Positions 13,615 through 29,496 of a stretch of DNA of 32,274 nucleotides are shown in pieces. A program made the translations under genes and the position numbers. Each line of letters begins with the position of its first letter. Within the stretch, counting starts at the first letter, position 1. Below the pieces are notes generated by a model. It made no database searches. It was not told the DNA's origin and was given only the letters and a program-made list of their open reading frames with translations. The DNA comes from Frankia sp. (GTDB lineage: Bacteria; Actinomycetota; Actinomycetes; Frankiales; Frankiaceae): positions 1-32,274 of the forward strand of contig JADGHD010000003.1 in the NCBI GenBank assembly GCA_019689615.1, read 5' to 3'.

Positions 13615-14298
13615 TCAGACGCCGAGGAAGCGCAGCACGGCGTCCATGGCGCGGACGTTGGACTGCAGGGAGAAGTGGTCGGCGCCGGCGATGACCTCGA
13701 CGCTGGCGGTGGGCAGCTGGGCGGCGAGCTCCTCCGGCCGCCCGGCGGTCCGGTCCCGCTCGCCGGCGACGATCAGGACGTCGCAGGTGACGGCAGCGAG
13801 CTCGACGGGGGTGAGCGGGTTGCGCGGCCGGCGGGCGAACGCGCTGATCGCGGCGAAGTCGTTGCCGGCGCTGCGGGCGAGGTTGCGGAACAGCCTGGCC
13901 GCGACGTTGGCCGGGTCGATCTCCTCCCCGGTGGCCGGGAAGGCGGTGTCGGCCTGCGCCGGCGGCTTGAGCACCCGAGGCCCGACGCCGAGCAGCGCCA
14001 GCCGGTCGAAGGCGGCCAGGCCGCGGGCGGCGCACTCGAGCAGCAGCCCGCCGCCGGCCGAGAAGCCGACCCCGGCCACCGGCCCGCGGTCCGCGAACGC
14101 CTCGGCGACCTCCTTGGCGGCGTCCGCGTAGGCGGCGGGGTCGGTGTCGCGTCGGGAGGTCCCGTGGCCGGGCAGGTCGACGGGGATGACCTCGCGGCCC
14201 GCCTCGCGCAGGATCTCGAGCCAGCCGGCTGGTCCCCAGCCGTGCGCGGTGGTGGAGCCGATGCCGTGGACCAGGACGACCGGTGCCGTTTCCGTCAT
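13615..14298 (-). CDS. Alpha/beta hydrolase
   Basis: VVLVHGIGSTTAHGWGP, VIPVDLPGHGTSRRD, GVGFSAGGGLLLE nucleophile elbow, GADHFSLQSN catalytic His region. Confidence 0.88.
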   Translation of the reverse strand: MTETAPVVLVHGIGSTTAHGWGPAGWLEILREAGREVIPVDLPGHGTSRRDTDPAAYADAAKEVAEAFADRGPVAGVGFSAGGGLLLECAARGLAAFDRLALLGVGPRVLKPPAQADTAFPATGEEIDPANVAARLFRNLARSAGNDFAAISAFARRPRNPLTPVELAAVTCDVLIVAGERDRTAGRPEELAAQLPTASVEVIAGADHFSLQSNVRAMDAVLRFLGV

Positions 14299-14359
14299 GG
14301 CCGAAAAGTACTGTCCGCCGGTCGCACGCGCCCGTGCTGGCCGGCGCCCGAGCCGGGGC

Positions 14360-15340
14360 TCACACCGGCCTGGCCGCGCCCGCGCCGCCGGCCGGCGCGC
14401 CACCGGACCCGGCCGCGGTGGCGTCCGGCCCTCCATTACGACCCGACCGGTCGTAGTGGCGCAGGAACAGCTCCTCCAGCGTCGGCGGCTGGCTGACCAG
14501 GCCGCGGACGCCGACGGCGGTCAGCCGGGTCAGGGCGTCGTTGAGGGCGTCGGTGTCGGCCTCGAAGCTCAGCCGGTCGCCGTCGGCGGCCAGGTCGTGG
14601 ACCCCGGGGAGGGCGGCCAGCTCGGCTGCCAGCCGCTGCGCCGGTGCGGCCAGCTCCACCTGCACCGACGTGCGGGTGAGGTGGCGAAGCTCGGCGAGCG
14701 TGCCGGTCTCCACCGTCCGGCCGGCCCTGATGATCGTGACGCGGTCGCACAGCGCCTCGACCTCCGCCAGGATGTGGCTGGACAGCAGGATCGTGCGGCC
14801 GTCGCGGCGCTGCTCCTCCCGTACCAGGTCGCGGAACTGGTCCTCCATCAGCGGGTCGAGGCCCGACGTCGGCTCGTCGAGCAGCAGCAGCTCCACGTCC
14901 GAGGCGAAGGCGGCGACCAGCGCGACCTTCTGCCGGTTGCCCTTGGAGTAGGCGCGCCCCTTCTTGCGCGGGTCGAGGTCGAACCGGTCCAGCAGCTCGT
15001 CCCGGCGGCGCGGGTCGAGCCCGCCGCGCAGCCGTCCCAGCAGGTCGATCGCCTCCCCGCCGGTGAGGTTCGGCCAGAGGGTGACGTCGCCCGGCACGTA
15101 GGCGAGCCGGCGGTGCAGCTCGGTCGCGTCCCGCCAGGCGTCGCCGCCGAGCACGCTGGCCCGCCCGGCGTCCGCCCGCATCAGGCCGAGCAGGATCCGC
15201 AGCGTCGTGCTCTTGCCCGCCCCGTTCGGGCCGAGGAACCCGTGCACCTCGCCGGTGCGCACGACCAGGTCGAGGCCGTCCAGGGCCCTGGTCGCGCCGA
15301 ACGTCTTGACCAGTCCTTCGGCGACGATCGCCTCGGTCAT
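14360..15340 (-). CDS. ABC transporter ATP-binding protein (ABC-2/DrrA-like)
   Basis: [26 protein letters not shown] Walker [16 protein letters not shown] signature; [15 protein letters not shown] Walker B. Confidence 0.93.
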
Positions 15341-15466
15341 GCGCGGCCCTTCGGTGTCTGGCGCGGCCGCAGCCCGCCCGGTCCTGATCCGGCCGCGCGC
15401 GGCATGCGTCCGACAGTCTGCCCGCGGCCCAGCGTACGGCGGCCACGAACGGCAATACCCGCGGAC

Positions 15467-16129
15467 ATGAGCGCGCAGCCGACCGGCGACATCAACCAGG
15501 ACCAGCCACGTGGCGACGCTGGTCAGGACCAGCCGGGTGGCAAAGTCAGGCAGGACCAGCCGCGTGGCGACGCCCGGCAGGACCAGTCGCGTGGCGACCC
15601 CAGGCAGGACCAGTCGCGTGGCGACCCCCGGCAGGAACAGCCGCGTGGCGACGCCAGGCGGGAAGCGGCCAGCCCGGACGCGGGGTGGGCGCGGGCCGGC
15701 GGGCCGACGCCGCCCGGAGCGGGCCACCGGGCGCTGCCACACCCCGCGGACCTGGTCGTCGAGGCCTGGGCGCCGACGCTGCCCGCCTGCCTGGCCCAGG
15801 CGGTGCTCGGGCTGGTGGACACGTTCGCCGACGGCGCCGGCGTGCCGGCGAGCGGCCGGCACCAGTTCGCCCTGCCGGCCGCCCCGGCGGACGAGCAGTT
15901 GGTCGCGCTGCTCAACGAGGTCATCTTCGTGGTAGACGTGGCGGCTGCGGTGCCGGTCGCGGCCCGGGTCAGCCCGGACGGGGATGGCGGGTTCGCGGTC
16001 GAGCTGGCCACGGCACCGGTTGAGGCGGTCCCCGTGGTCGGGCCGGCCCCCAAGGCGGTCGCGCTGTCCGGGCTGCGCGCAGAGCAGACCGGCACCGGCT
16101 GGGTATGCCGCGCCCTGGTCGACGTGTAG
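15467..16129 (+). CDS. Archease-like protein with N-terminal tandem-repeat extension
   Basis: Core [43 protein letters not shown] and C-terminal [26 protein letters not shown] match the archease pattern; directly upstream of rtcB. Confidence 0.85.
15485..15646 (+). repeat. Six tandem 27-bp repeats encoding GDxRQDQxR
   Basis: Protein units GDINQDQPR / GDAGQDQPG / GKVRQDQPR / GDARQDQSR / GDPRQDQSR / GDPRQEQPR, then a degenerate seventh unit [12 protein letters not shown] units align without gaps. Confidence 0.97.
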
Positions 16130-16256: not shown

Positions 16257-17717
16257 ATGTCCACAAGCACCGTGACCGGGCAGCGGATCGAGCTGGTCGA
16301 GGAGACGCCCTACCGGTGGCGGATCGACCGGGCCGGGCCGATGCGGGTGCCCGGCGTCGTGTTCGCCTCCCATCGGCTGCTGCCCGAGCTGGCCGGCGAC
16401 CAGTCCCTCGCCCAGGTGGTGGGCGTGGCGACGCTGCCGGGGATCGTGCGGGCCGCGTACGCGATGCCGGACATGCACTCCGGCTACGGCTTCCCGATCG
16501 GCGGCGTGGCCGCCACCGACATCGACGAGGGCGGCGTGGTATCCCCCGGCGGGGTCGGGTTCGACATCTCCTGCGGCGTCCGGCTGCTGCTGTCCGACCT
16601 CTCCCGGGCCGACCTGGCCGGCCAGCGCCTGAACCGGCTGATGGACGCGCTCGACCGGCTGATCCCGCGTGGGCTCGGCCGGGGCGCGGTGTGGCGGCTG
16701 TCCCGCCGGGACGAGCTGGACGCCCTGCTGACCGGCGGCTCCCGGTACGCGGTGGAGCGGGGGCATGGCGAGCCGGGCGACCTGGCGCACTGCGAGGACC
16801 AGGGCGCGGTCGCCGACGCCGACCCGGCGCAGGTCAGCGAGCGGGCCATGGCGCGCGGGCTCGGCCAGGTCGGCAGCCTCGGCTCCGGCAACCACTTCCT
16901 GGAGCTGCAGGTGGTTGAGTCGGTCTACGACCCGGCGCTGGCCGACGCCTTCGGGCTGACCCGCGGCCGGGTCTGCGTCATGATCCACTGTGGGTCGCGC
17001 GGCCTTGGCCACCAGATCTGCTCCGACCACGTGCAGGCGATGCTGCGGGCGATGCCCCGGTACGGGATCTCGGTCCCGGACCGCCAGCTGGCCTGCGCCC
17101 CGGTCACCTCCCCGGAGGGCCAGCGCTACCTGGGCGCGATGGCGGCCGCCGCGAACTACGGCCGGGCGAACCGCCAGCTACTGACCGCGGCGACGCGCAC
17201 CGCCTTCCGCCGGGCCCTCGGCGACGCGCACAGCAGGCTGGACCTCCTCTACGACGTCTCGCACAACCTCGCGAAGATCGAGACGCACACCGTCGACGGG
17301 CGCGAGCGCCGGCTGTGCGTGCACCGCAAGGGAGCGACGCTGGCCCTGCCACCGGGCCACCCCGGGCTGCCAGCCGACCTGCGCCCGCACGGCCAGCCGG
17401 TGCTGGTCCCCGGTTCGATGGGCACCGCGTCGCACGTGCTCGCCGGCGTCCCCGGCGCCGAGGCCTTCCACTCCACCTGCCACGGCGCCGGCCGGCTGCT
17501 CAGCCGGCACGCCGCGATGCGCCGCATCCACGGCAGGACGCTGCGGGAGCAGCTGACGGCGGCGGGCGTCGCGGTCCGCGCGGCGAGCGAGCGCGGCCTC
17601 GCCGAGGAGGCGCCGTTCGCCTACAAGGACGTCGACGAGGTGGTGACCACCTGCGAGCGCGCCGGCCTCGCCCGCCGGGTGGCCCGACTGGTCCCCATCG
17701 GCGTCGTCAAGGGGTAG
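16257..17717 (+). CDS. rtcB: RtcB family RNA-splicing ligase
   Basis: [61 protein letters not shown] and STCHGAGR (guanylylated His region). Confidence 0.96.
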
Positions 17718-26513: not shown

Positions 26514-26576
26514 CGTCCGCCTGTTGCCGGGTGACGTCCGCCTGTTGCCGGGTGACGTCCGCCTGTTGCCGGGTGA
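26514..26576 (+). repeat. Three perfect tandem 21-bp direct repeats
   Basis: CGTCCGCCTGTTGCCGGGTGA repeated identically at 26514-26534, 26535-26555 and 26556-26576. Confidence 0.98.
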
Positions 26577-28383: not shown

Positions 28384-29496
28384 GTGACTGTCACTCCTTG
28401 TACGCATGACCCGCATCCGCCGGTCGACAACCACTCCGCCGCCCCGGCCGCCGGCCCGGCCCGGACACCTCAGGTGCTGCCTGGCCCTCCGCCGCCGGCG
28501 GTGCGCGCGCTGCGGACCGCGGTCTTCGTCGACGAGCAGGGCGTCCCGGCCGAACTGGAGCACGACGCGGCGGACGAGCTCGCCGACCACGCGGTGCTCT
28601 GGGACGACGCCGGGCAGGTGCTGGCGACCGGCCGGCTGCTCGACCCGGCCGCCGTCGCCAGCCTGGTCACCGGCCCAGCGGGCTGGGCCGCCGCGGCCGA
28701 CGACGAACCGGTCGGGGTGATCGGTCGGGTCGCGGTGCGGGGAGACGCCCGGGGCCGCGGGCTCGGGCGGGCGGTCACCGAGGCGCTCGAGCGCCGGGCC
28801 GCCCAGCGCGGGCTGACCACGATCAGCCTGCACGCCCAGGTCACGGCGGCCGGGATGTACGCCCGGCTCGGCTACCGGGAGTTCGGACCGCGCGACCGGA
28901 CGGTGGGGATCGAGCACGTCTGGATGCGCCGGGCGCTGCTGCCCGGGCTGCGCCGGGTGCGCGACGACGACGGCCCCGAGCTGGAGCGGCTGATCGGCGG
29001 GATCTGGGCCGAGTACCCCGGATGCGTGCTGGACGTCGACGCCGAGGAGCCGTGGATGCGCGCTCCGGCCAGCGCCTACGACGGCGACGCCGGCGGCCGC
29101 GGGTACCGGGGCGCGATGTGGGTCGTCGACGCCGCCGGGGCTGGCGTCGGTGCCGACGGGGGTGCCGACGGGGGTGCCGGCCCGGCCGGGCGGCTGGTGG
29201 CCTGCGTGGCGGTGCGCGAGACGGCGGAGCCACGGCGGGTGGAGCTCAAGTCGCTGTACGTGGCCGCCGCCGCGCGGCGCCGCGGGCTCGGTGCGGCACT
29301 GGTGTGGCGGGTCGAGCGGGAGGCCAGGCGGCGCGGGGCACGGTTCGTCGACCTCTGGACCGACACACGGTTCACGGATGCCCATCGCCTGTACGAACGG
29401 CTCGGATACGCAGCGACAGGGCAGACCCGCGATCTGCATGACCTGTCCAACACGACGGAGTACTACTACTCCAAGGAGTTGCCGAACCTCCGGTAG
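28384..29496 (+). CDS. Tandem GNAT-domain N-acetyltransferase
   Basis: First domain ALRTAVFVDEQGVPAELEHD, VIGRVAVRGDARGRGLGRAV; second domain VELKSLYVAAAARRRGLGAALVWRVEREARRRGARFVDLWTDTRFTDAHRLYERLGY. Confidence 0.88.
   Translation: MTVTPCTHDPHPPVDNHSAAPAAGPARTPQVLPGPPPPAVRALRTAVFVDEQGVPAELEHDAADELADHAVLWDDAGQVLATGRLLDPAAVASLVTGPAGWAAAADDEPVGVIGRVAVRGDARGRGLGRAVTEALERRAAQRGLTTISLHAQVTAAGMYARLGYREFGPRDRTVGIEHVWMRRALLPGLRRVRDDDGPELERLIGGIWAEYPGCVLDVDAEEPWMRAPASAYDGDAGGRGYRGAMWVVDAAGAGVGADGGADGGAGPAGRLVACVAVRETAEPRRVELKSLYVAAAARRRGLGAALVWRVEREARRRGARFVDLWTDTRFTDAHRLYERLGYAATGQTRDLHDLSNTTEYYYSKELPNLR

Follow-up and report, generated by a model that had tools for sequence, protein, structure and literature searches.

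A 27-bp in-frame tandem array in the leader of a Frankia archease, most likely an ordinary repeat expansion

An archease gene of Frankia sp. carries, between its start codon and its conserved core, an array of 27-bp tandem units that was absent from all the other archeases examined and that is most likely the product of ordinary repeat expansion. The reading that we regard as probable is an in-frame expansion of a minisatellite within a polar, length-variable, disordered leader, giving a flexible spacer that is tolerated and probably near neutral. The archease itself is genuine and, paired with its RtcB, is probably a working protein.

The array and its reading frame

The gene (positions 15467..16129 of the window, that is, the whole stretch of 32,274 nucleotides analysed; forward strand) encodes 220 residues. 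Directly after the initial MSA, seven in-frame units of consensus QPRGDARQD, the first of them degenerate, occupy 189 bp (15476..15664, forward strand; delimited by TRF and by a unit table made by hand). They are followed by a non-repetitive linker of 19 residues (67–85, 15665..15721, forward strand), which runs in translation up to a conserved GHR, whose GH is shared with relatives. The array reported by TRF had a period of 27, 6.2 copies, 84% matches and a score of 222 (15497–15663), whereas none scored above 100 in 200 dinucleotide shuffles of the whole window. The array is not due to chance. It is the same one that the first-pass annotation had placed at 15485–15646, read in another register.

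Copies 4 to 7 share 23–25 of 27 bases pairwise, and copy 1 agrees with the other copies at 17–19 of 27. The divergence gradient toward the first copies, which had been proposed earlier, was broadly right, but the description of the central copies as nearly identical was overstated, these being 85–93% alike. At the protein level the 9-residue pattern is regular, with R-G-D mostly kept; relative to the consensus, 4 codon differences are synonymous and 14 change the amino acid. This regularity neither proves nor excludes selection on the tail.

Translation through the repeats encounters no stop. The ATG at 15467 is the only plausible start codon, since no in-frame ATG, GTG or TTG occurs between it and residue 113, a position inside the archease core where initiation would wreck the domain. 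Any archease made from this gene must therefore include the repeat tail. Upstream, the nearest in-frame start is an ATG 21 codons before the one at 15467, and its use would only extend the tail. A start downstream of the repeats, the objection that the first-pass annotation had foreseen, thus appears contradicted by the distribution of start codons. No clear ribosome-binding site was found before the gene, as is the case for many of its relatives. The GC content at the three codon positions of the repeats (0.86/0.52/0.81) resembles that of the archease core (0.85/0.53/0.93), unlike that of the upstream spacer (0.78/0.81/0.73), repeated units being non-independent data in this comparison.

With units repeated beyond chance, a period divisible by three and an open frame, the array is of the same kind as the in-frame coding minisatellites known as variable-number tandem repeats in proteins, whose product, as here, is predicted to be disordered. 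It differs from them in that it sits in an archease and is known here from one genome.

The archease core and its RtcB partner

The identification of the protein as an archease was borne out by the match to PF01951 (E 2.6e-18, 67.1 bits against a cut-off of 25, profile positions 2–136 of 136), which covers residues 88–220, in frame with the repeats. Within the core (residues 86–220, 15722..16126, forward strand), D95, K196, D219 and the C-terminal V220 align with D51, K156, D178 and I179 of human archease, where the three side chains and the terminal carboxylate of I179 hold metal and phosphate (PMC10944509). The archease motif HTAD reads HPAD here, with the same proline in L019 and L025. An AlphaFold2 model, built on an alignment of 41 sequences, gave block means of 93–98 over most of the core. 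Residues 1–80 were at pLDDT 45–61 and had no secondary structure, low pLDDT being a prediction of disorder, not a measurement, for repeats that had no counterpart among the aligned sequences. Foldseek gave 12 matches at E <= 0.001, every one of them an archease, with the human RTCB-Archease complex at the top. The window protein is therefore alike in core sequence and fold to the PF01951 family of RtcB activators (for example 4n2p from P. horikoshii and 8btx/8odo from human), with which it also has in common the metal- and phosphate-binding residues and an rtcB neighbour.

The partner gene, rtcB (16257..17717), starts 127 bp downstream on the same strand. It encodes a complete RNA ligase of 486 residues (PF01139, 549.7 bits, full length), whose alignment with P. 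horikoshii RtcB (1uc2) begins at residue 19 and reaches the end. The two genes are co-oriented, as in Mycobacterium loci; in most actinobacterial loci (65 of 97; L038–L117), rtcB is likewise downstream but is encoded on the other strand.

No archease was found in 34 other genomes of the family, where the archease-RtcB pair is missing. The family relatives examined that have RtcB carry a different type, 30–33% identical to that of the window and itself absent from this genome, and the window RtcB is at most 74–75% identical to other actinobacterial RtcBs that adjoin an archease. The pair may have entered this genome by transfer, or it may have been lost from the relatives. A phage or plasmid origin was rejected: there was no phage match, and the plasmid matches were five weak records, four from Streptomyces in which the core was matched and one from Natrialba in which only the low-complexity tail was. 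Misbinning of the contig was also rejected, because a divergent ABC gene, 125 bp from the 5' end of the archease gene, is 81–83% identical to genus relatives, which places the contig where it was binned. The ABC and alpha/beta-hydrolase genes beside the archease (13615–15341) have counterparts near each other in the genus relatives, but the hydrolase there seems to flank the ABC gene on its opposite side, approximately at the position that archease takes in the window.

Leaders and tandem arrays in relatives and in the genome

Leaders were measured in 80 named actinobacterial archease loci from the nearest in-frame start to the conserved GH, a mechanical start call that gives the shortest possible leader in each case. 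They ranged from 2 to 48 codons with a median of 7, as compared with 85 in the window gene, most of which consists of the 27-bp repeats. None of the 80 loci carries the array. In 50 of the 80 loci, an in-frame stop (or the end of the locus) also limits the leader to below 86 residues. Upstream of archease in 100 relatives, a set that overlaps slightly with the 80 loci, TRF found no comparable array; the best other score was 97, for a 29-bp repeat in L048. This comparison of orthologues supports the proposal that the repeats are a genuine addition to the N terminus, absent from relatives. The longest other leader, of 47–48 residues and rich in P, R and G, is that of Thermomonospora catenispora (L084, 2860–3000), and it contains only a weak 18-bp repeat (score 47).

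The closest resemblance was to leaders of the Streptomyces type, which are rich in D, Q, R and G, nearly charge-neutral and, like the tail, placed directly before GHR; an example is MADDTQGDRRGDTQRES (L007), which overlaps a weak 12-bp repeat. In contrast to the tail, these leaders are only 17–21 residues long and have no long array. The repeat unit had no second site in this genome, and searches of 13 relatives and of 394 other genomes of the class gave none either. A dispersed repeat family was thus rejected. Nothing useful on Frankia tandem repeats or minisatellites was found in the literature.

To place the array against its genomic background, non-overlapping arrays (period 12–60, score >= 80) were collected from 495 kb of this genome. 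Of the 40 arrays, 32 had a period that is a multiple of three, as did 24 of 34 in a genus relative; in the absence of coding constraint, such periods should make up one third. The archease array is the strongest with such a period in the 495-kb sample, and arrays of similar score with periods of 28, 32 and 34 bp are also present. Since arrays with in-frame periods are common in this genome and in the genus relative, that of the archease gene is ordinary in kind.

Two other short arrays were observed in the window. Three exact 21-bp tandem repeats (CGTCCGCCTGTTGCCGGGTGA, 26514–26576) stand directly before the likely start of a response-regulator gene, probably upstream of its start codon and outside the protein. 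An exact 12-bp repeat (GGTGCCGACGGG, 2.6 copies, 29149–29179) lies within the ORF at 28384–29496 and is translated as GADGGADGGAG.

Origin and possible role of the tail

The leader is short in relatives, varies in length and is often polar. In the reading that we favor, a 27-bp minisatellite, which may have grown by replication slippage or unequal recombination, would have extended it here to 85 residues. Since each unit is a multiple of three bases long and encodes a disordered segment, the protein would stay intact as units are gained or lost. Judging from the aligned residues, the core is expected to activate RtcB in the usual way, with D95, D219 and the C-terminal carboxylate holding the metal and K196 contacting the phosphate. 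In archease, both termini lie close to the metal-binding tip (PMC3973293), so that the tail would emerge near the surface that enters RtcB and would have to be accommodated there. It is expected to serve as a flexible spacer whose effect is small or absent.

The same geometry also speaks for a functional tail, in which a disordered arm of balanced charge would contact RtcB or its RNA, or would hold archease close to RtcB for repeated activation, with the number of repeats tuning the effect. The tail exits the core next to the tip that enters RtcB (PMC3973293), extra N-terminal residues of human archease (10–21) become ordered upon RTCB binding (PMC10944509), and several Streptomyces leaders have the same polar composition. 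Nevertheless, we consider such a function unlikely, given that the net charge is about zero, that no relative has such a tail and that similar arrays unconnected with RtcB are frequent in the genome. Doubt is greater still for the more specific proposal that a length-variable disordered tail tunes RtcB activation, slippage then producing heritable variation in RNA-repair activity. The suggestion of the first-pass annotation that the polar, Arg/Asp/Gln-rich tail could bind RNA was not upheld: the repeat region contains 12 R/K and 13 D/E, and because of the resulting net charge of −1, simple electrostatic binding is improbable and was ruled against.

It is very improbable that the array is a regulatory or structural element, of DNA or RNA, that only happens to overlap the gene or that lies ahead of a later start. 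Its place at the 5' end of the gene, close to the divergent ABC gene, would suit such an element, but in addition to the lack of a later start codon before residue 113, it has no inverted repeats, no promoter- or terminator-like sites and an RNA folding no better than that of shuffles (z −0.63), and the repeat is not dispersed. A non-coding array was rejected on the start, inverted-repeat, folding and promoter/terminator results. Least probable of all is an assembly artefact in the array or its copy number, a concern raised in the first-pass annotation. A draft genome in 845 contigs and an array longer than many short reads speak for it; it is weakened by units that can be told apart (17–25 of 27 bases) and by the match of the adjacent ABC gene to genus relatives, although the number of copies may be wrong.

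If the tail were functional, then as a disordered arm, prone to slippage, on an activator of an RNA ligase it would offer a simple handle on lineage differences in the length of the archease N terminus. As it stands, the expansion is a clean case of minisatellite growth at a place where a conserved protein tolerates it.
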